Part shown: positions 51,004-62,310 of the stretch, piece after piece
How the letters are laid out: the number at the start of each line of letters is the position of its first letter
Numbering within the stretch: position 1 is the stretch's first letter
Origin: Planctomycetota bacterium
GTDB lineage: Bacteria > Planctomycetota > Planctomycetia > Gemmatales > Gemmataceae
NCBI GenBank assembly: GCA_021807595.1
Contig: JAKBCS010000007.1
Coordinates: forward strand, 1 to 62,909
Direction of reading: 5' to 3'
DNA: 62,909 nucleotides
Position numbers and translations under genes: made by a program
Notes under the pieces: generated by a model
The model's database searches: none
The model's input: only the letters and a program-made list of their open reading frames with translations
What the model was told of the DNA's origin: nothing

Positions 51004-52242
51004 TTATCCCAAGATGCGGTCCCAATGCGCCTTGTGATAGGCGACTTTCTGTGCCGCGGTCATTTTTGCGAATTCGACTTTGCCGTTCGATTCGGCTTGA
51101 ATCGATTTCTTTTCGTGGCAAGCGCAAGCCTGCTGCGCTGCGCTTCTGCAGGCGCAGGCGGTCGATTTCCCGGTCTCGCTAGCGCTTGGCGGTAAACTTA
51201 TCGCAACCCCGTTGCCGCCGTAGTTCATTACGTTGGTTTGCAATTGCATGTCGTCGTTGAGCGAACGATACGGTTTGATGCCGAGATGCTGCAAGACGCC
51301 GTGATAGGCACGCACGGCCTCTTCAGCACTTATTTCACCGTCGGCGATGAGGCGCAAAAAACGGATAAAAGCGAGCTGATTTTCCGCATTATTGATCTTG
51401 CGACCGAACAGGGCCACGCGCGCGCCGTACTTCTTCGCTTCGCTCAACAGTTTGAAGGCGTCGTAGGTCGTCCCCGCCGAACCGCCGAGGATGCCGACGA
51501 CGAGATGCGGATCGTAGTGGACCAGTTCTTCCATCGCTTGCGGGCCGTGGTAGACCATTTTGAGGAACAGCGGTCGGCCCGAACTCGTGACGCCGCCGAG
51601 CGTGCGGACGATGGCGTCGTTGATGAAACCGGGCAGCTGGCTCGCCTGAACCGCTTCCGGTCGGTTTGGATCAAACACTTCGAGGAAATGGCGGAACCCC
51701 TTGCGCTCGGCTTCGAGGCGAAATTGTTTGTACTCCTCCAATGCCGCGCGATCCAACTCCGTATCATTGTTGAACGTGATACTATATAAGCCGAGATTGG
51801 CACCGAGACGACGTTCCTCCGGTTTGCAATCGAGATGGCCGCACTGGATGTGATCGAGCGTGGCCGTGCGGAAGGGCAGCGAGGGCGAAGTCGGATATTT
51901 ACTACCGCGAATGATGTGAATGTCGGTCGTGTCGTTGGCGCGAGCGGCGGGTGTGACGGGGCTGTTGTCGAACAGCCGTTTGTGAATGGTCAGCACTTCG
52001 CTGGTGCTGGCGGCCATCAGCATGATGTCCACCAGTTTCGCCTCGACGATTTGCGTAATGATGTCGCGGAACTCGGCGAGACTGCGATAGCGCAATTCGC
52101 CGCTGTGTGCTTCCGGCGAACGTCCGGGCGCACCGATGGCCAGCGCCATGTCGGCGTCCTTGGCGTCGGCGAGGATGAAATCCTTGCAGCCGCGCGGATC
52201 GGCGTGAAGGCGAGCGAGCTTTGTTTCGAGAGTTTTTTGCAT
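51004..52242 (-). CDS. TIM-barrel aldolase-like protein of the BMC locus with Cys-rich linker and EP-like tail
   Basis: A protein of 412 aa. Residues 1-340 look like a class-I-aldolase TIM barrel (DeoC/FbaB-like): GRPLFLKMVYHGPQAMEEL holds a candidate Schiff-base Lys, and HYDPHLVVGILGGSAGTTYD with VALFGRKINNAENQLAFIRF resembles the phosphate-binding end. A disordered segment carries two CxC pairs (C363, C365, C373, C375, followed by H376). The last 20 residues (MTAAQKVAYHKAHWDRILG) form an amphipathic helix like BMC encapsulation peptides. The function is not established; it may act on a sugar phosphate upstream or downstream of lactaldehyde. The ATG at 52242 follows GGGACGTTAGTT. Confidence 0.75.
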   Translation of the reverse strand: MQKTLETKLARLHADPRGCKDFILADAKDADMALAIGAPGRSPEAHSGELRYRSLAEFRDIITQIVEAKLVDIMLMAASTSEVLTIHKRLFDNSPVTPAARANDTTDIHIIRGSKYPTSPSLPFRTATLDHIQCGHLDCKPEERRLGANLGLYSITFNNDTELDRAALEEYKQFRLEAERKGFRHFLEVFDPNRPEAVQASQLPGFINDAIVRTLGGVTSSGRPLFLKMVYHGPQAMEELVHYDPHLVVGILGGSAGTTYDAFKLLSEAKKYGARVALFGRKINNAENQLAFIRFLRLIADGEISAEEAVRAYHGVLQHLGIKPYRSLNDDMQLQTNVMNYGGNGVAISLPPSASETGKSTACACRSAAQQACACHEKKSIQAESNGKVEFAKMTAAQKVAYHKAHWDRILG

Positions 52243-52267
52243 AACTAACGTCCCAGTCTCGTCGGCC

Positions 52268-52477
52268 TCAGCGCCCACGAATTCCAAATGTTGAATACCA
52301 TAAAATCATAGACAATACACCCTGAGCGACGAAGCAAAGTAGCGGTTCTACCAGAACGAGCGCCCAACTGGCAAGATACACACCCGTAAATATAAGTTTC
52401 GTGCGAAACTCTTGGTCGCCCATCAACCAGCAGAATCCGAGCAATACCTACGTCAAAATGGAGACACCGATACCCAT
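52268..52477 (-). pseudogene. Nonsense-interrupted small membrane protein in the BMC operon
   Basis: An ATG at 52477 with GGAGAAATGCA upstream opens MGIGVSILT, then TAG (52450-52448), after which the frame continues for 59 codons to TGA at 52268. The continuation has two hydrophobic helices (LIFTGVYLASWALVLVEPLL and CFVAQGVLSMILWYSTFGI). The good ribosome site and open frame beyond the stop suggest a gene broken by one nonsense codon, or a later start (ATG 52423). It lies between the dehydrogenase and TIM-barrel genes. Confidence 0.55.
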
Positions 52478-52507: not shown

Positions 52508-53542
52508 CTAAGATTTCTGCCATGCCGCGCGCGGTATCGGCTTTCCATTCTTCGCAGGTACAGTATTCCCTTTTGGTGCGATCGTCTCTGTATTATTCGC
52601 CCGGACCTTTCCGACGCGATCCTCGACTCGATCGATGGTCTCGCGCAGCACCCGCGCCGATTGCTGCATCGCCATGCGTTCCTTCGGCGTAAGCGATAAT
52701 TCGATTTGCTGTCGCACGCCGCCACAGCCCACGACCGTCGGCACCGACAAACACACATCGCGGATACCGTAGAGTCCTTGTTGCAAACTGCTGACCGGCA
52801 GAATGCGGCGGCTGTCGCGGGCCAGCGATTCGACGACTTCGCGGATCGACAATCCGACGGCGAAGCCGGAGCCGCCCTTGAGCTTGATAACTTGCGCTCC
52901 CGCCGTCTTTGTGTCTTCAAACGCTTCTCGTTGCACGGCAGGCGAGAAGGTCGGCCATTGCTCCAGCGGCAAACCGGCGATGGTGGCACTCGACCAGATC
53001 GGCACCATGCTGTCGCCGTGTTCGCCGAGGATTATCGCCTGCACCTGCGACGCCGGCACTTGCAGACTCTTGGCGAGATAGCCGCGAAAGCGCGCCGTAT
53101 CCAATTGCGTGCCGAGGCCGACGACACGCTGCCACGGCAGACCGCTCCGCTGCACGGCGAGATATGTCAGCACATCGACGGGATTGCTGACAACGACGAG
53201 ATAGGCGTCGTCCTTCAGTCCGGCGTTCTTGACCTGATCGAGCAGCGTCAGGAACAGATCGACGTTGCGGTTGATGAGATCGAGCCGACTCTCTTCGGGT
53301 TTGCGGCGCAGACCCGCCGTGATGACGACGATATTACTTGTCGGAATGTCTTCCATCGTGCCAGCGCTGAGGCGTTGATCGCTGGTCAGCGCCGCTCCGT
53401 GAAGCAACTCCAAAGCGTGCCCCTTGGCCGCATCGGCATTGGCGTCGATAAGACACAAATGATTGACGATGCCGCCGCACTGTAAGGCGTAGGCGGCCAT
53501 ACTACCGACCAAGCCGCCGCCGCCGATAATGCTGACTTTCAT
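52508..53542 (-). CDS. Lactate/malate-dehydrogenase-family NAD oxidoreductase of the BMC locus
   Basis: A protein of 344 aa. Motifs: VSIIGGGGLVGSMAAYALQC (NAD site), VVSNPVDVLTYLAVQRSG and GLGTQLDTARFRGYLAKSL. The catalytic His is in AIILGEHGDSMVPIW, and the active-site loop TAGLRRKPEESR has loop Arg R86. The substrate-specificity position, Gln in LDH, is Arg (R80), as in malate dehydrogenases. A 35-residue basic, proline-containing tail follows the catalytic fold. PVM loci encode such an enzyme, usually called lactate dehydrogenase and thought to recycle NAD. The start at 53542 gives the Rossmann fold at residue 3. Confidence 0.88.
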   Translation of the reverse strand: MKVSIIGGGGLVGSMAAYALQCGGIVNHLCLIDANADAAKGHALELLHGAALTSDQRLSAGTMEDIPTSNIVVITAGLRRKPEESRLDLINRNVDLFLTLLDQVKNAGLKDDAYLVVVSNPVDVLTYLAVQRSGLPWQRVVGLGTQLDTARFRGYLAKSLQVPASQVQAIILGEHGDSMVPIWSSATIAGLPLEQWPTFSPAVQREAFEDTKTAGAQVIKLKGGSGFAVGLSIREVVESLARDSRRILPVSSLQQGLYGIRDVCLSVPTVVGCGGVRQQIELSLTPKERMAMQQSARVLRETIDRVEDRVGKVRANNTETIAPKGNTVPAKNGKPIPRAAWQKS

Positions 53543-53599
53543 AGTTTCACTCACTCGCCAATAGTTCGATTTCATCACGACTCGAAGGAGATTGGGATG

Positions 53600-54602: not shown

Positions 54603-55463
54603 TCATCCAACACCGACACCCTGGAGTGCGTCCATGACCCGATCGGTAATTGTCCGCACCAACTCGTCCATGTCCAACCCCTCGGCGGCACGTCCGTTGC
54701 GCGAGGGCGAGACGGAGCAAGCGTCGCGGCGGAAAGCGTGCGGCTGGGGTACAAAGTCAGTGTAGGATTCGTCGAAGCTGCTGTCGCCGCACATCGCGTA
54801 GCTATCGTCGCGGAAGCGCACATCGTCGTAGCCGAGCCGTTTCTTCAACTCCAACAGTTCGCGCGTCTTCTGTTCGTCGAAATAGTTGATGCGGCCCAAC
54901 TGCTTGGCGAGAATAAGAATGCGACAATAAGCATCGATAATTTCCGTATTCCAATACGCTTTCTCCAAATCTGGCCCAAACGTAATGGTACCGTGATTGG
55001 CAAGCAGAATCGTATTGCAATCCTTGGCGAAGGGAACGACGGTATCGGCAAATTTTTGGCCGCCCGGTGTCTCATAGACGGCAATGGGCACTTCGCCGAG
55101 GAATACTTCGACTTCGGGCAAAATACACTTGGGAATCGGCTCGTGGGCCACAGCGAAGGCGGTGGCATGAGGCGGATGACAATGGACGCACGCCATGATG
55201 TCGGGACGCTGTTTGTAGATGGACAAGTGCAACAGCACTTCGCTGGTACGCTTTTTCGTACCGGCCAATTGTTTGCCTTCGATGTCCACCTTACATATAT
55301 CTTCGGGTTTCAGAAAACCCTTGCATACCATCGTCGGCGTACACAAAAACTCCCGCTCGCTGAGACGAACGGTGATATTGCCGTCGTTGGCGGCGGCGAA
55401 GCCTTTGGCATAGACGCGCCGACCAATTTCACACATCTGTTCTTTAAGTTTGTACTCGTTCAT
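54603..55463 (-). CDS. Class II aldolase (fuculose/rhamnulose-1-phosphate aldolase-like) with encapsulation peptide
   Basis: A protein of 286 aa. The fold is the class II aldolase/adducin type: GFAAANDGNITVRL, VHCHPPHATAFAVAH (zinc His pair), ILPEVEVFLGEVPIA, and LLANHGTITFGPDLEKAYW with a further zinc His. It would cleave L-fuculose-1-phosphate or L-rhamnulose-1-phosphate to DHAP plus lactaldehyde, the signature step of PVM microcompartments. After a disordered SPSRNGRAAEGL linker, the C-terminal helix DMDELVRTITDRVMDALQG is a clear encapsulation-peptide-like amphipathic helix. GAGGTGCTT precedes the ATG at 55463. Confidence 0.93.
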   Translation of the reverse strand: MNEYKLKEQMCEIGRRVYAKGFAAANDGNITVRLSEREFLCTPTMVCKGFLKPEDICKVDIEGKQLAGTKKRTSEVLLHLSIYKQRPDIMACVHCHPPHATAFAVAHEPIPKCILPEVEVFLGEVPIAVYETPGGQKFADTVVPFAKDCNTILLANHGTITFGPDLEKAYWNTEIIDAYCRILILAKQLGRINYFDEQKTRELLELKKRLGYDDVRFRDDSYAMCGDSSFDESYTDFVPQPHAFRRDACSVSPSRNGRAAEGLDMDELVRTITDRVMDALQGVGVG

Positions 55464-55474
55464 AAGCACCTCAT

Positions 55475-55508: not shown

Positions 55509-55793
55509 TTATACGTTCAGCACAATTGAATCCAAAATACACGCACAATACGCATCGACCGGCTTTTTCTGCGGATGAAACGGTGCCGCCGCCTCACCGC
55601 CTTCGCTGAAACCGATACGCGCACCGATTCCTGCGCCAAGATTGTCGTAAATCACCAGATCCTCGCCATCGGGAACGGTATCATTTTGCAAGGCCGTCAA
55701 ACTGTAGGGTACACCAATCAACCAACGCGCTCCAATCATACTTGGATGCACGCGCGAGAGCGTGACGTTGCCGATTATCTCAGCGATGCGCAT
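55509..55793 (-). CDS. BMC-P pentameric shell protein (EutN/CcmL family)
   Basis: A protein of 94 aa. MRIAEIIGNVTLSRVHPSMI, RWLIGVPYSL and LVIYDNLGAGIGARIGFSEG match the EutN/CcmL OB-fold; these pentamers cap the vertices of the shell. It is one of three BMC-P genes in the operon. The ATG at 55793 follows GGAGTTGGACGGTC and overlaps the end of the RpiB-like gene by 14 nt, so the two are translationally linked. Confidence 0.9.
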   Translation of the reverse strand: MRIAEIIGNVTLSRVHPSMIGARWLIGVPYSLTALQNDTVPDGEDLVIYDNLGAGIGARIGFSEGGEAAAPFHPQKKPVDAYCACILDSIVLNV

Positions 55794-56235
55794 GACCGTC
55801 CAACTCCTGTAAGATGCACGCCACGCCGGGAGGACAGTTGCCGCCATCACAACACAGCCGTAGCAATTCCTTACACTCGAAGTAAGTGCAGTGATTCATC
55901 TCGACGACGAGCAGATTCGCCCCCACTTGTTCCAGCGCTCGTGCTGCCTGGGCCACGGTCCACACCGCCGCCGCTCGCACACCGGGGACTTTGTTGGCGA
56001 TGCAACATGCGAGGCAGGCATCGCGACAAAACAGCACCGCCGTTCGGCACTTGCCGCTTCGCAAACACTCCGCCACGCGCCGTATCCAATCGCACGTTTC
56101 GCCGTTGCACTCCGGCAGAATTTGTGGCGAATGTCCGTTGCGATGGGCGGCGCGCAGGGCGATTTGCAGCATCGTCGAGGGCCGGCCTTCCACGGCATAG
56201 CCCCATCCCGCCACGTTTTGCCCGTTGCCGTTCAT
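55780..56235 (-). CDS. Cys-rich RpiB/LacA-like protein of the BMC locus
   Basis: A protein of 151 aa. Residues 50-110 align with ribose-5-phosphate isomerase B: AVLFCRDACLACCIANKVPG matches the RpiB stretch ILICGTGxGMxIAANKxxG, followed by VRAAAVWTVAQAARALEQ and GANLLVVE. The N-terminal SDHAG motif is missing, the GTG after the catalytic Cys is RDA, and the active-site His region is lost, so isomerase activity is doubtful. It has 14 Cys (43, 48, 57, 63, 70, 74, 77, 78, 116, 121, 128, 129, 134, 140), including C70-x3-C74-x2-C77. It starts at the TGATG junction with the upstream BMC-P gene. Confidence 0.75.
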   Translation of the reverse strand: MNGNGQNVAGWGYAVEGRPSTMLQIALRAAHRNGHSPQILPECNGETCDWIRRVAECLRSGKCRTAVLFCRDACLACCIANKVPGVRAAAVWTVAQAARALEQVGANLLVVEMNHCTYFECKELLRLCCDGGNCPPGVACILQELDGHAHR

Positions 56236-56489
56236 CAATCCGCCAAACCCATCACGAACCAACGCGCCGGAGAATCCTTCGCCTTTACCATCGCCCGGGC
56301 CTCGGCTCCATCGTTACACATCAATACGCGATCGCCGGCCCCCGCCCCTAACTGGTCGATTGCCAAAATCGGTTCGCCATCGGGTTTGTCGTCGATGCCC
56401 AGCAGTTGCACGAGCAGCAGTTTGCTACCCGACAAACTCGGGTGTTTCACCGTAGCCACCGCACGACCGACGACACGACCGATTTGCAC
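56235..56489 (-). CDS. BMC-P pentameric shell protein
   Basis: A protein of 84 aa. MQIGRVVGRAVATVKHPSLS, GSKLLLVQLLGID and ILAIDQLGAGAGDRVLMCND follow the EutN/CcmL pattern. It is a vertex protein of the shell. Its TGA shares a base with the ATG of the RpiB-like gene. A long hairpin precedes it. Confidence 0.92.
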   Translation of the reverse strand: MQIGRVVGRAVATVKHPSLSGSKLLLVQLLGIDDKPDGEPILAIDQLGAGAGDRVLMCNDGAEARAMVKAKDSPARWFVMGLAD

Positions 56490-56574: not shown

Positions 56575-58002
56575 TTATAGAACTCGCATACTCTTCACGG
56601 TGGTCGAACGCCGCTGTCGTGTGAAGGTCAACGGCGTCGTCACTCCCTCACCCGTTGGCGTGGCGATGCTGAAACTTAGATAACCCTCGCCGCCGCTGCC
56701 GAGTCCAGCCACGCTGGGTCCATTCTGCACGAACAGCGTCGTATCCATCTCGCGGCCCATGCGCGTGATCGTCTCGACATTGCGCGAATGAAGGATACTC
56801 GTATGTTTGAATCCATGTTCATACTTTTTCGCCAACGCAATCGCGGTATCGACATCCGAGACGCGCACGAACGGCACGAACGGCATCATCTGCTCGTGAT
56901 CGACGAACGGATGCGCTTCGTCGGTCTCGCCGAACAGCAGTTCCGTATCGGCGGGAACCTTGACACCGGCGGCTTGTGCCAGCACGGCGGCATCGCGGCC
57001 AATCAGATCCTTGTTGACCATTTCGTGCCCTTTGTCGTCCTTGACGAATGCGGCCTTCGTCAACGCCGCGATTTGTCCCGCATCCAGCTGCACCGCTTTA
57101 TAGCGCCTCATCAGATCGCATAACTCGTCGAAGATGGACGCGACGGCGAACACTTCCTTCTCGCCGATGCACAGCAAGTTATTGTCGTAGGCCGCTCCGG
57201 CGATGATGGAACGCGCGGCGTTGTCGAGGTCGGCGGTCTCATCGACGACCACGGGTGGATTTCCGGGGCCGGCGACGATGGCACGCTTCGGACTTCGCAA
57301 GGCGGCGCGGCCGACGGCGGGACCGCCGGTCACGCACAACATGCGGACATCACGGCTATCGAAGATCGCCTGCGCCGATTCCAGAGTCGGCTTGTCGATA
57401 ATGGTCAAGAGATTGTCGATGCCGATGGCCTCGTGAATCGCTTGATTGAACAGATGAACGCCCTTGCAAGCAATTTTTGCCCCAGAGGGATGCGGATTGC
57501 ACACGAGCGAATTGCCGGAGGCGAGCATGTTGATGGCATTGCAGGCCAAGGTCGGCAGCGAATGCGTCACGGGAGTTATGACACCAATGACGCCGAACGG
57601 CGCGTACTCTTGCAGCGACACGCCGTTTTCGCCGCTGAACGCATCGGTACGGAGAAACTCAACGCCGGGGATGCGATCGGCGATCACTTTCAGCTTTTCG
57701 ATTTTGTGGACGAGCCGGCCGATCTGTGTCTCTTCCAATTCCTCGCGGCCCAATTCCTCGGCTTGTTCGCTGCAAATCTTGCGAATGCAGGCGACGGCCT
57801 TTCGTCGGTCTTCCAGTCCGCGCGATTCAAACTCGCACTGCGCCTCTTTGGCGGCGGCAACGGCGCTGTCGGCGTCGGCAAACACGCCGCGCTGTTTCGC
57901 ATGGCCATTCCGACTGGGAACCGCCGCAGATGTTTGGCCATTACGCATCTGCGATAACACTTGTTGAATCACGCCGCGAACGAGTTCGTCTGTCACTTGC
58001 AT
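56575..58002 (-). CDS. CoA-acylating aldehyde dehydrogenase (PduP/EutE-like), BMC type
   Basis: A protein of 475 aa. It converts lactaldehyde to lactyl-CoA with NAD and CoA. The catalytic Cys is C278 in [10 protein letters not shown]; other motifs are [20 protein letters not shown] and [15 protein letters not shown], then [14 protein letters not shown]. The N-terminal helix [17 protein letters not shown], followed by a disordered linker ([14 protein letters not shown]), is an encapsulation peptide, placing the enzyme in the lumen. It sits directly downstream of a BMC-P gene in the operon (14 bp). Confidence 0.95.
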
Positions 58003-58016
58003 CGTTGTTTCTCACT

Positions 58017-58328
58017 TTATTCGCTTGCCGAGAAAATCGTTCGGTTCTCGACGTTGACGGTATCCACAATGCCAATGATGGTGGCGTCCACCGGCAGTTT
58101 TTCGGTTTCCGGCGTCAGGCGAGCGCTCGACCCTTGTACAATTAACACCATCTCGCCTTGACCCGCGCCCACGGTATCGACCACGACAAAGCTGCGACCT
58201 GTGCCAACCAGACGATCGCGCTGGCTGGGTTCGACGCGCAGTGGTTCGACGATCAGGAGTTTGTGGCCTGTCATCGAAGCGACTTTCTGCGTGGAGACTA
58301 CCACTCCGTTGACGCGCGCCAGGAACAT
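58017..58328 (-). CDS. BMC-P pentameric shell protein
   Basis: A protein of 103 aa. MFLARVNGVVVSTQKVASMT, GHKLLIVEPLRVE and VVVDTVGAGQGEMVLIVQGS match the EutN/CcmL fold. Third vertex protein in the operon. Its upstream spacer holds a 49-bp duplication; GAAGGAAAGGGCAAAG is the ribosome site. It precedes the AldDH gene by 14 bp. Confidence 0.93.
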   Translation of the reverse strand: MFLARVNGVVVSTQKVASMTGHKLLIVEPLRVEPSQRDRLVGTGRSFVVVDTVGAGQGEMVLIVQGSSARLTPETEKLPVDATIIGIVDTVNVENRTIFSASE

Positions 58329-58332
58329 GGTT

Positions 58333-58430
58333 TCTTTGCCCTTTCCTTCACTCAGGGGGCTAACGCCCCCCGCTCAGAAGATCTTTGCCCTTTCCTTCAC
58401 TCAGGGGGCTAACGCCCCCCGCTCAGAAGA
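58333..58430. repeat. 49-bp direct duplication with GGGGGC/GCCCCC hairpins
   Basis: Two identical 49-bp copies, 58333-58381 and 58382-58430. Each has the hairpin GGGGGC-TAAC-GCCCCC. The second copy lies over the 3' end and TAG stop of ackA; the first is the spacer before BMC-P. It looks like a recent tandem duplication of the ackA end, so transcription crosses two hairpins before the BMC-P gene. Confidence 0.95.
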
Positions 58431-59596
58431 TCTTTGGCTTGCCGAGCGACGATGATTTCCTCGTTCGTCGGCATGATCCACAGTTGCACTCGGCTATTCG
58501 CACTGTGAATCGCCGCTTCTCCCTTGGCCTCGTTGTTTTTCCGGCGATCCAGATCGATGCCGAACCAATCCAGATCGGCACAAATGGCCTCGCGGATGTG
58601 CGTCGAATTTTCACCGATGCCGCCGGTGAAAACGATCGCGTCAGCACCGTTCAAGAGCAACAAATACGCTCCCAAATAGTGTCGAATCGAGGCGACAAAG
58701 ACATCGAGGGCAAGCCGGGCATTCTCTTCGCCGGACGCGGCAGCCTTTTGGATGTCGCGGATGTCGTTGTAACCGCTAAGGCCCAACATGCCGGAGCGAT
58801 TCGCCAAATCATCGAGCACTTGTTCCACGGTTTTGCCGGTCGCCCTCATCAGCGCCGGCAGCGCGAAAACATCAAAGTCGCCGACGCGGTTGTTGTGCGG
58901 CAAACCGCTCTGCGGACTCATGCCCAGACTGCAAGCTCGCGATGTGCCGCTGGCGACGGCGCACAGCGACGAGCTGCCGCCCAGATGGCACGAGATAATT
59001 TTCGCTTCGGGCTTGTTCAGTAGCCTCGCTGTTCGCTCGGCGATAAACCGATGGCTCGCGCCGTGGAAGCCGTATTTCAGAATGCCGTGCTTCTCGACCC
59101 ATTCGCGCGGCACGGCATAATAGCGCTCGGCATCGGGAATCGTTTGATGGAACCCCGTCTCGAACGCGGCCACCAACGGAATTTGCGACAACTCCTTGGC
59201 CAACAGCCGCATGACGCGGATGTACGGTGGATTGTGAGCCGGGGCGACATCGGCATAGGCCTCCATCGCCGATAGCACCCGCTCGTCCACGCGCTGCGCA
59301 CCGCTGACACCTTGGGCGTGTACCGCCTTGAAACCGATGGCCGCCAACTCCGATGGATCGGACAAACAGCCTCTTTTCGGATCGGATAATTGCTGTAAAC
59401 ACAGTCGCACAGCTACTGCGTGATCGCGCGCTTCGATCGTTGCTTCTTCGCATTGACCTCCGGCTTCGACGAAGCAGCGCGACGACGGCGAACCGATTCG
59501 CTCGACGCCGCCGCGCGCCAACATCGTTTCGGTTGTCATGTCGAACAACCGATATTTGAAGCTAGTGCTGCCCAGATTGGCAACGAGGATTTTCAT
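58409..59596 (-). CDS. ackA: Acetate kinase-family enzyme (acyl-phosphate kinase of the BMC pathway)
   Basis: A protein of 395 aa. The ASKHA fold shows ILVANLGSTSFKYRLFDM, KYGFHGASHRFIAERT, SCHLGGSSSLCAV, RVGDFDVFALPALM and VFTGGIGENSTHIREAI. In the BMC pathway it would convert lactyl-phosphate (or acetyl-phosphate) and ADP to the acid and ATP. Its active-site GASHR and GENS motifs are intact. It has no encapsulation peptide, so the step may be cytosolic. The ATG at 59596 opens directly on MKILVANLGS. Confidence 0.95.
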   Translation of the reverse strand: MKILVANLGSTSFKYRLFDMTTETMLARGGVERIGSPSSRCFVEAGGQCEEATIEARDHAVAVRLCLQQLSDPKRGCLSDPSELAAIGFKAVHAQGVSGAQRVDERVLSAMEAYADVAPAHNPPYIRVMRLLAKELSQIPLVAAFETGFHQTIPDAERYYAVPREWVEKHGILKYGFHGASHRFIAERTARLLNKPEAKIISCHLGGSSSLCAVASGTSRACSLGMSPQSGLPHNNRVGDFDVFALPALMRATGKTVEQVLDDLANRSGMLGLSGYNDIRDIQKAAASGEENARLALDVFVASIRHYLGAYLLLLNGADAIVFTGGIGENSTHIREAICADLDWFGIDLDRRKNNEAKGEAAIHSANSRVQLWIMPTNEEIIVARQAKDLLSGGR

Positions 59597-59633
59597 GATT
59601 CTTCGAATAACTCTCTGCGTGGTACGGAAATCG

Positions 59634-59870
59634 TTAATGTTTAATCGCCAGTTGCGCCACGATGCCCACCACGTGCATGACGCCACTGATGATTGTGACG
59701 ATCATGGCGTTGCGTTTAGCCAGTTCATCCTTGCACGTTACCAACCCGATGATGCCGAGGATGAGGGCGATCGTACCGCAGCAGAAGCCAAACAGGATCA
59801 GCAGCACGATATTGGTGTTCGCGAATGTCCCATCGAGTCCAGAGAGCTGATTGCCGCCGTTTTTGGGCAT
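59634..59870 (-). CDS. Small two-helix membrane protein between BMC-H and ackA
   Basis: A protein of 78 aa. A polar N-terminus (KNGGNQLSGLDGTFANTN) precedes two TM helices: IVLLILFGFCCGTIALILGI and AMIVTIISGVMHVVGIVAQL. The intervening loop is CKDELAKRN. GAAGGAGATCGAGCA precedes the ATG at 59870. No family is recognised. It is in the operon between a BMC-H and ackA, which suggests a role linked to the compartment (for instance a membrane or substrate-channel contact), but this is inference. Confidence 0.8.
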   Translation of the reverse strand: MPKNGGNQLSGLDGTFANTNIVLLILFGFCCGTIALILGIIGLVTCKDELAKRNAMIVTIISGVMHVVGIVAQLAIKH

Positions 59871-59958: not shown

Positions 59959-60261
59959 TCATTTAAGGAACGTCTCCAGCACATCCGCTTCCGGGCGGGG
60001 AATGACGTGCGCGCTAATCAGTTCGCCGTTGGCGCTGGCGGCCTGCGCTCCGGCGTCGACTGCCGCCCGTACGGAGCCAACATCGCCGCGAACGAAGGTT
60101 GTCACAAACGCATTGCCGATCTGCAATTGACCGGCCAGGGTGATATTGGCCGCCTTACACATGGCATCGGTGGCCGCGATCGTTGCGATCAAACCCTTGG
60201 TTTCGATCAAGCCCAGGGCTTCGCCGTTCCCGTTGCGGCCATTGCCGTTACTGCTCGCCAT
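59959..60261 (-). CDS. BMC-H hexameric shell protein (QIGNA pore)
   Basis: A protein of 100 aa. [20 protein letters not shown] starts the BMC fold; the pore loop is LQIGNAFVT and the C-terminal end is [16 protein letters not shown]. It forms hexameric tiles of the shell. A 15-residue Gly/Asn-rich N-terminal extension ([11 protein letters not shown]) distinguishes it from its partner at 60301. The pore motif QIGNA deviates from the usual KIGSG. Confidence 0.95.
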
Positions 60262-60300: not shown

Positions 60301-60609
60301 TTACACACCAACGGCCGTCTTTTTGCCGGCCAAAGGCAACACCGCGCCGAGATCTTCGTGCGGGCGGGGAATGACCTGCACGCCGACAACCTCGCCGACT
60401 CGCGAAGCCGCGGCGCTGCCGGCGTCGATGGCGGCCTTGACCGCGGCCACGTCGCCGACCACCAAGGCCGTGACCAAACCGCTGCCGATCTTTTGCCAGC
60501 CGATCAACGTGACGTTGGCGGCTTTCAGCATGGCGTCGCTAGCCTCGACCAGCGGCACCAAACCCTTGGTTTCAATCATGCCAAGGGCTTCCATGTGGGA
60601 ACTAGCCAT
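60301..60609 (-). CDS. BMC-H hexameric shell protein (KIGSG pore)
   Basis: A protein of 102 aa. [20 protein letters not shown], the canonical pore [27 protein letters not shown] and a short C-terminal extension ([11 protein letters not shown]). It shares about half its residues with the BMC-H gene at 59959 and probably mixes with it in the shell facets. GGAGACCCAC precedes the ATG at 60609. Confidence 0.95.
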
Positions 60610-60651
60610 GTGGGTCTCCATTTTCTTTGGTAACTGTCGAAATCCAAGTTC

Positions 60652-60732: not shown

Positions 60733-61425
60733 TCATTTGAACAATTCGAAACGGGTCGCCCGGTTTATGTGGCAGGCGTTGCCCTCATCCGTGTCCAGAT
60801 GAACTTCCAGTTTCGATGCCGGCGAAAAGCGGACGAGCAAACTCTCCAACACCGTCGGACAATCGCTATCGATTCGCAGATGCAAGCGGTCGCCGTCCTT
60901 GACGCCGTAATGGGCCACATCCGTCGGACCCATGTGAACGTGGCGCTCGTGGCGGATGACGCCGCGCTCCATGTGAATCATGCCCGCCGGGCCGAGCAGA
61001 TACGCACCCGGCGAATCGCGGTGGTCGCCGCTCTTGCGCACGGGGATGTCCAGGCCGAGCATGACGGCGTCGGTGAACGCCAACTCGACCTGGCTATGAT
61101 CGCGGCAGGGACCGAGGATGCGCAGGCCGGTGATGGTGCGGTGTCGCGGTCCGATCATCGTCACCGTCTCTTCGGCGGCGAAGAAGCCCTCTTGATAGAG
61201 TGGCTTGTACGGCGTCAGCTTGTGGCCCTTGCCGTACAGGCGTTCGAGATCTTCCTGCGTAACGTGGCAGTGCCGCGCGGAGACGTTGACGACCAGTTTG
61301 GGCGTATGGCCCGGCATCTGTCGCAGCCGGTTCGCCGGGGCAGCATCTCCATTTCCTGTTCGTTCGCTCAAAGCCGCGCGCACCAGGCGTTCGATCGACG
61401 CGCGATCCAAGGTTGCCGTACTCAT
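60733..61425 (-). CDS. pduL: PduL-type phosphotransacylase with encapsulation peptide
   Basis: A protein of 230 aa. PduL transfers the acyl group from acyl-CoA to phosphate, recycling CoA inside the shell. Zinc ligands are in SARHCHVTQEDLERLYG and HERHVHMGPTDVAHYGV; the C-terminal HLDTDEGNACHI motif is present. The N-terminal helix LDRASIERLVRAALSERT, followed by a Gly/Asn linker, is an encapsulation peptide. It overlaps the upstream DeoR gene by 4 nt (ATGA). Confidence 0.96.
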   Translation of the reverse strand: MSTATLDRASIERLVRAALSERTGNGDAAPANRLRQMPGHTPKLVVNVSARHCHVTQEDLERLYGKGHKLTPYKPLYQEGFFAAEETVTMIGPRHRTITGLRILGPCRDHSQVELAFTDAVMLGLDIPVRKSGDHRDSPGAYLLGPAGMIHMERGVIRHERHVHMGPTDVAHYGVKDGDRLHLRIDSDCPTVLESLLVRFSPASKLEVHLDTDEGNACHINRATRFELFK

Positions 61426-62201
61426 AGTTGATTGTTCTCCGCCTCACCGGCTACCATTAGCCGAACGTCGTTTTGTCGCAGCAATTCCCTCTGTACCGCG
61501 TCCAACTGATTGTCCACAATTAGCGTGTCGATGTCGGTCAAATTGCACAGATAGGCCAATGCCTGCCGACCAATCTTCGTATGATCGGCCAACACTACGA
61601 CCTCATCGGCGCAGCGCATCATCTGCCGTTCCGTCTCCACCAACAGCAGATTGCTGTTAAACAATCCCTTTCCGGTAATGCCGCCCACGCTCATCAACAG
61701 TTGTTGGACGTGAATGTCTTCCATCATGCGCACTGTTAGCGGTCCCAGGGCGACCCCCGTTTTGGGATAAACGTAGCCACCCAGGATGACCAAATCGATC
61801 TCCCGGCTGGCGGCAAAGAGTGAGGCGATGGGCAGGCTGTTCGTCACAATCTGCAACGACCTTCCGACCAACAATCGCGCCACTTCCAGCGTCGTCGTAC
61901 CGCCGTCGAGCAAGATCGTGTCGCCGTCTTGAATGCGGGAGACGGCGGCGCGGGCGAGAAGCCTCTTCTCTTCCAGCTGGCTGGCCGAGCGCTCTTCCAA
62001 CGCCGGTAAAGTGGCTACATCGCCGACGAACATCGCTCCGCCGTGCGTCCGCCGCAGCATTCCCTGCTTGTGCCAATAGTCCAAATCGCGCCGTAGCGTC
62101 GATTCCGACACTTCGATGGTTTGCGCAAGATCGTTCAGAGCAACGAATCCTCGTTCGCTGACGAGATCCAGCACGCGTTGTCGTCGTTCCTCAACCAGCA
62201 C
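61422..62201 (-). CDS. DeoR-family transcriptional regulator of the BMC operon
   Basis: A protein of 259 aa starting at GTG 62201 (GAGGGAGCCGCC just before it). The N-terminal HTH reads RRQRVLDLVSERGFVALNDL and VSESTLRRDLDYWHKQGMLR; the sensor domain has ILLDGGTTTLEVARLL and VILGGYVYPKTGVALG typical of DeoR proteins, which bind sugar phosphates. It probably represses the operon until fuculose- or rhamnulose-derived phosphates accumulate. It is the first gene of the operon. A longer frame opening with TTG at 62237 lacks a ribosome site. Confidence 0.94.
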   Translation of the reverse strand: MLVEERRQRVLDLVSERGFVALNDLAQTIEVSESTLRRDLDYWHKQGMLRRTHGGAMFVGDVATLPALEERSASQLEEKRLLARAAVSRIQDGDTILLDGGTTTLEVARLLVGRSLQIVTNSLPIASLFAASREIDLVILGGYVYPKTGVALGPLTVRMMEDIHVQQLLMSVGGITGKGLFNSNLLLVETERQMMRCADEVVVLADHTKIGRQALAYLCNLTDIDTLIVDNQLDAVQRELLRQNDVRLMVAGEAENNQL

Positions 62202-62228
62202 GGCGGCTCCCTCGCAAAGCTTGACAGA

Positions 62229-62310
62229 TTCTGGCAATCCATGACAGATAATGATAGTCTATGCGCGTTACCGCCTTCCTGTCAAGAACATTTTGCCAAT
62301 TCTTGCCAGA
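62229..62310 (-). promoter_or_regulatory. Promoter and candidate DeoR operator of the BMC operon
   Basis: On the minus strand TTGACA (62285-62280) and TAGACT (62261-62256) are separated by 18 bp, a fair sigma-70 promoter. TTGCCA boxes at 62293-62298 and 62303-62308 repeat every 10 bp upstream of it, and an inverted TGGCAA at 62232-62237 lies near the start. This arrangement resembles operators of DeoR repressors, which bind spaced repeats. Binding is inferred. Confidence 0.5.

Follow-up and report, generated by a model that had tools for sequence, protein, structure and literature searches.

Microcompartment operons of the PVM type have been assigned to the aerobic breakdown of L-fucose and L-rhamnose (PMC4207490; PMC8857213), and DeoC and RpiB are enzymes common to loci of the SPU type (PMC8217296). 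Details of how shell and enzyme core are held together have been worked out in few microcompartment systems. In the Pdu compartment, shell and enzyme core are joined by PduM (PMC9132943), a protein with an N-terminal targeting signal for which, in 2025, no known homologues outside Pdu microcompartments were described (PMC12108088). In the Eut compartment, residues 1-99 of EutQ bridge shell and cargo, the first helices touching the shell and the later ones binding encapsulation peptides (PMC12487888).

The window analyzed here, i.e., the whole stretch of 62,909 nucleotides, originates from a planctomycete of the family Gemmataceae. It contains a gene for a short, cysteine-rich RpiB-like protein in the middle of a shell operon.

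The Operon Around the RpiB-Like Gene

The locus is a complete PVM-type (fucose/rhamnose) microcompartment operon. The PVM set is found together in the order PduL, two BMC-H, acetate kinase, BMC-P, aldehyde dehydrogenase (AldDH), BMC-P, RpiB-like, BMC-P, class II aldolase and lactate-type dehydrogenase (LDH), with three BMC-P genes in all. The following features were annotated:

61422..62237 (-), putative DeoR-type regulator (family assigned from sequence alone)
60733..61425 (-), PduL phosphotransacylase (PF06130, 5.4e-66)
60301..60621 (-), BMC-H shell protein (PF00936, 2.1e-27)
59959..60261 (-), BMC-H shell protein (PF00936, 7.6e-26)
58409..59686 (-), acetate-kinase-like ORF (assigned from sequence; coordinates taken from the first possible GTG; translation may begin further in)
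58017..58328 (-), third BMC-P shell protein (CcmL/EutN NCBIfam matches)
56575..58002 (-), CoA-acylating aldehyde dehydrogenase with an N-terminal encapsulation-peptide-like helix (NF011927, 1.2e-182; helix moment)
56235..56489 (-), BMC-P (EutN/CcmL) vertex shell protein, upstream neighbour (PF03319, 4e-26)
55780..56235 (-), putative RpiB-like pseudoenzyme, short Cys-rich form, 151 aa (PF02502, 1.3e-9; AlphaFold2; Foldseek; syntenic orthologues)
55509..55793 (-), BMC-P (EutN/CcmL) vertex shell protein, downstream neighbour, MRIAE start (PF03319, 3.1e-17)
54603..55469 (-), class II aldolase, the PVM signature enzyme, with a C-terminal amphipathic helix (PF00596, 1.4e-49)
52508..53578 (-), lactate/malate dehydrogenase, predicted NAD recycling (PF02866/PF00056, about 1e-32)
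51004..52287 (-), unclassified protein (weak NF005556 match, 6.5e-4)

Homologues of the acetate-kinase-like ORF occur in all fully fetched PVM loci, and homologues of the unclassified protein in most of them. For the latter, no relative was found in Pfam and the PDB, and the label "DeoC-like", which was tried for it, was unsupported on testing. A Cys-rich stretch, CACRSAAQQACACHEKK, is located near its C-terminus.

The RpiB-like gene is an ORF of 151 codons on the reverse strand that starts with the ATG at position 56235, and this MNGNG/ATG start is common to close relatives. In agreement with the original prediction, the gene lies between two shell genes and overlaps both of them, the upstream BMC-P gene by 1 nt and the downstream one by 14 nt. 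The downstream gene starts at position 55793, inside the end of the RpiB-like gene, and the bases 55780-55793 encode both the C-terminus HAHR of the RpiB-like protein and the MRIAE start of the shell protein. HAHR is kept across orthologues because the overlap with the start of the next gene dictates it, and its conservation therefore says little on the RpiB-like protein itself. Comparison with four relatives shows purifying selection on the gene (dN about 0.09-0.21, dS about 0.6-1.4), and it is therefore, with a dN/dS of about 0.10-0.15, a working gene.

Kinship to RpiB and Loss of the Active Site

The Pfam model PF02502 (LacAB_rpiB) covers only residues 49-111 of the window protein, with 38.5 bits compared to a curated cut-off of 24.7, and the protein stays under the cut-offs of the NCBIfam RpiB models. 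Its best sequence match in the PDB is an RpiB. An AlphaFold2 model, which was built with 17 orthologues (pLDDT 85, pTM 0.78), is predicted to have the fold of this family, as its best Foldseek match is the RpiB structure 6mu0 (E 1.9e-7) and the top 45 matches are RpiB/LacAB or related isomerases.

A canonical RpiB is encoded elsewhere in the same genome (G000 C247, 4.2e-58). When the two proteins are aligned, the SDH and DYP motifs, the GTG turn, the ring-opening His and the phosphate-binding GGRH-RR are replaced or missing in the window protein, whereas the position of the catalytic Cys (C70) and the ANK...RA and AN motifs are kept. The structural residues N81, R87, A88, and N107 are almost invariant across very divergent proteins of the family. 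The original prediction had described exactly this pattern, a retained RpiB core around the catalytic Cys together with the loss of SDHAG, the GTG turn and the active-site His. It had also ranked sugar isomerization below a redox role in plausibility. Given the lost active-site residues, it is highly improbable that the window protein functions as an RpiB, and its reading as an isomerase was rejected on these grounds. The term pseudoenzyme, used in the same prediction, is supported by the loss of catalytic residues, and the protein can be regarded as a putative RpiB-derived pseudoenzyme of the microcompartment locus.

Orthologues in a Conserved Slot

Syntenic orthologues in the Gemmataceae were identified by a family search, and orthologues across the class by a profile search. 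The order AldDH / BMC-P / RpiB-like / BMC-P / class II aldolase is fixed in the syntenic loci L031-L058, and the same slot together with the aldolase was found in every locus listed with gene order among L060-L128, where a few contigs end before one flanking gene. A strong family match is present in 150 of the 249 genomes of the class, and all 150 carry EutN/CcmL genes. None of the 52 class genomes without EutN/CcmL contains a strong match.

In 17 loci that carry EutN but gave no strong family match, the slot was checked for a gene. L139-L142 contain only the helix and the linker domain described below (open frames of 132, 87, 83, and 103 codons), and in L143-L145, L147 and L148 the body is unrecognizable or very divergent. 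Inspection of the slot revealed no detectable gene in L146, L149, and L151-L155; as the slot is empty in several PVM loci, some lineages can do without the part. In L150 the contig ends at the slot. The two BMC-P genes of L149 and L151-L155 are adjacent or nearly adjacent to each other, with the slot between them empty.

Distribution of the Cysteines

As noted in the original prediction, the window protein contains 14 cysteines in 151 residues (positions 43, 48, 57, 63, 70, 74, 77, 78, 116, 121, 128, 129, 134, and 140). Given that cysteines make up 1.7% of the residues in the operon itself, the chance of such a number is about 4e-7. The CX3CX2C spacing, from which a [4Fe-4S] cluster and a redox role within the compartment had been predicted, is also present (C70-x3-C74-x2-C77, strictly C-x3-C-x2-C-C), but the triad is complete in only 4 of the 43 syntenic orthologues, the window protein and three relatives. 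Position 74 is occupied by Tyr at 85% identity, by Gly at 73% and by Asp at 52%; three of the seven nearest relatives have a Cys here, compared to none of the 21 PVM proteins outside the Gemmataceae and its sister family. The original prediction had named a lack of Cys conservation in orthologues as a refutation, and for the motif cysteines the alignment shows this lack. The argument for an iron-sulphur protein from CX3CX2C is therefore refuted, and the predicted Fe-S or electron-transfer role was rejected.

Cys-richness is confined to one sub-clade of the Gemmataceae, and the other PVM orthologues have 0-8 cysteines. C78 is the only Cys conserved throughout the class (38 of 42 relatives). Within the Cys-rich sub-clade, C63, C70, C77, C78, C128, and C134 are invariant in all eight proteins, down to 52% identity, and the retention of cysteines can exceed the mean identity (12 of 14 at 62%, 11 of 14 at 52%). 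L077, which is nested in this sub-clade, keeps 7 of the 14 and has lost C43, C48, and C57 together. As a weaker point, this distribution may hint at some Cys-dependent property of the sub-clade.

Architecture of the Full-Length Relatives and Origin of the Linker Domain

At the class level, most orthologues exceed the window protein in length and consist of an N-terminal amphipathic helix, a linker, a domain of about 50 residues and the dead RpiB body. In most of these members the encapsulation-peptide-like helix is located at or near the maximal hydrophobic moment of the protein. The domain has the form VITxxxL..G...V.....IVTPxARDxLRxRGIxxxR. The Gemmataceae members are without the N-terminal helix, and both helix and domain are lost in the sub-clade of the window as well as in L115 and L116, which belong to another family of the same order. 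Accordingly, no encapsulation-peptide-like N-terminal helix was found in the window protein by its helix moment, and a search for the linker domain gave no match in the protein, the window, the other short-form loci or the rest of the genome. The C-terminal helix of the short form, which was considered as a replacement encapsulation peptide, is amphipathic, though not exceptionally so. Since helix and domain stand alone in L139-L142 and the RpiB body stands alone in the lineage of the window, the two halves are separable and were reciprocally lost.

An NCBIfam scan of 19 family members identified TIGR02536 (ethanolamine-utilisation protein) in eight, PduM in three and EutQ in three of them, beside the RpiB models. 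With an HMM built from PVM proteins only, EutT (1.6e-5), PduM (6.4e-4), and EutQ (6.9e-3) of Escherichia coli took ranks 1-3 of 1109 ORFs, a ranking that is unbiased only within this set of 88 kb, which was picked for the eut and pdu operons. Shuffled controls of each protein reached at most 4.8-10.5 bits, compared to 12.3-20.6 bits observed. The addition of nine more PVM members to the HMM gave 2.3e-6 for EutT, 4.9e-5 for PduM and 3.1e-3 for EutQ. In the reverse test, an HMM of the three E. coli proteins only placed the RpiB-like proteins on top among 2540 PVM ORFs. The matches lie in E. coli EutT, in the C-terminus of PduM and in the N-terminus of EutQ. The PVM linker domain thus seems to be detectably homologous to these proteins, with modest E-values subject to short-profile statistics and EutQ as the weakest match. 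No solved structure of the domain was found by sequence.

A further RpiB with a BMC-type N-terminal helix and linker domain is encoded in another planctomycete beside DeoC, an arrangement known from SPU-type loci (L002, at L135:7749-9412). Its active site is largely intact, with SDH, a GIG turn, EHN and GGRHARR kept and an Asp at the position of the catalytic Cys. The linker-domain match is weak alone (0.006 within its locus, 0.15 at proteome scale), and the call also leans on the position between the helix and the RpiB body. No shell genes were found in 18 kb around RpiB/DeoC. In the simplest history, the inactive PVM linker would derive from an RpiB that was still active and targeted to an SPU-like compartment.

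Proposed Role and Alternative Explanations

We propose that the RpiB-like family, with a retired isomerase as its base, links shell and cargo in the PVM compartment, and that the copy in the window is a truncated version of this linker, a proposal to which we give an even chance. It builds on synteny, the loss of catalytic residues, architecture, domain homology and selection. The family would descend from, or share ancestry with, a BMC-targeted RpiB. By analogy, the full-length members would act as a linker inside the compartment, joining shell and enzyme core: the N-terminal amphipathic helix would enter the cargo condensate, the domain of the EutQ/EutT/PduM kind would bind on the side of the shell, and a folded and possibly oligomer-forming body would be provided by the RpiB domain, which is catalytically dead. 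The slot between the two BMC-P genes, with overlapping coding ends in this genome, may couple synthesis to that of the vertex proteins. In the Gemmataceae lineage of the window, the loss of helix and linker domain would have left a bare RpiB body, which is maintained by purifying selection and most probably continues to serve as a structural component of lumen or shell; this function of the bare body we infer from the conserved slot and purifying selection only. The window protein is thus probably an assembly part and not an iron-sulphur protein. A wider generalization, for which we would put the chances somewhat below even, is that the helix and the module of about 50 residues form a general shell-cargo adaptor of metabolosomes (PduM, EutQ, EutT, SPU RpiB, PVM RpiB-like), which was shuffled onto cupin, adenosyltransferase and isomerase bodies and which in Planctomycetes sits on a dead isomerase, its halves reciprocally lost.

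If the protein were instead a functional isomerase of sugar phosphates, with a rebuilt active site and an intermediate of the pathway as substrate, its PF02502 score above the cut-off, the predicted RpiB fold and the kept position of the catalytic Cys would be expected. However, SDH, the GTG turn, the His and the phosphate-binding Arg are gone, none of the 21 other PVM orthologues outside the Gemmataceae and its sister family has C70, the body of the family is degenerate or lost in some PVM loci, and a canonical RpiB is available in the genome, which makes such an activity very improbable. A [4Fe-4S] or other metal redox protein with C70, C74, and C77 as ligands, transferring electrons within the compartment, is a highly improbable reading as well: it agrees with the motif spacing in four proteins and with a Cys number far above chance, but not with the incomplete triad and the Tyr, Gly or Asp at position 74 in the other orthologues, nor with the loss of half of the cysteines in L077 within the Cys-rich clade itself, and such a redox step would be superfluous in the PVM pathway as described.

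The six cysteines invariant in the sub-clade could also form another metal site (Zn/Fe) or disulfide cross-links, which would stabilize a body devoid of its targeting parts. Their conservation down to 52% identity, the retention of 11 or 12 of the 14 cysteines in divergent members, the joint loss of C43, C48, and C57 in L077 and the placement of several of them near the former active site, as the alignment suggests, speak for this explanation, but the other short forms L115 and L116 have 3 cysteines and further cysteines occur at variable positions, and we consider it unlikely. The overlaps of 1 nt and 14 nt and the HAHR end dictated by the MRIAE start would also fit a relic that is kept mainly as a translational coupler and adjusts how much of the two BMC-P proteins is made. 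This has a slim chance only, as dN/dS is well under 1 across the gene, N81, R87, A88, and N107 hardly vary over very divergent proteins, and the gene is kept in other lineages despite little or no overlap.

If the relationship described here is right, PduM gains relatives in the Eut, SPU, and PVM systems. For the fucose/rhamnose organelle of the Planctomycetes there would then be a candidate linker, which could be deleted in a genetically tractable species. Planctopirus limnophila is reportedly the species used for the characterization of the PVM organelle. The family would be an example of a retired metabolic enzyme retained as a structural part, and an unsupported Fe-S reading is removed.

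Comparison With Known Systems

The window protein is like the RpiB/LacAB isomerases (PF02502) in its predicted fold, its core sequence and the ANK...RA and AN motifs, but it is without their catalytic and phosphate-binding residues and is located in a PVM shell operon. In the SPU-type RpiB (L002), helix, linker domain and RpiB body follow in the same order as in the full-length PVM relatives, whereas the window form is without helix and domain; L002, in turn, keeps most of the catalytic residues.

Like PduM, the full-length PVM relatives have an N-terminal encapsulation signal, their linker domain resembles the C-terminal domain of PduM, and the pduM gene also adjoins a BMC-P gene. PduM differs in its domain order and in having no RpiB body, and of the two, bridging has been shown for PduM only. 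The first approximately 50 residues of EutQ resemble the PVM linker domain, as the weakest of the three matches, but the body is a cupin in EutQ and an RpiB in the PVM family, and shell-cargo bridging is published for EutQ. In contrast to both linkers, the window protein itself is without helix and domain, while its full-length relatives have the domain and most class-level relatives the helix. As its genome is also without the linker domain, the strongest functional analogy fits the relatives rather than the window protein.

As far as the available portions of the microcompartment catalogues go, RpiB is named there for SPU loci only (PMC4207490; PMC8217296). Compared to the PVM (PV) microcompartment, the window locus has the complete gene set and order.
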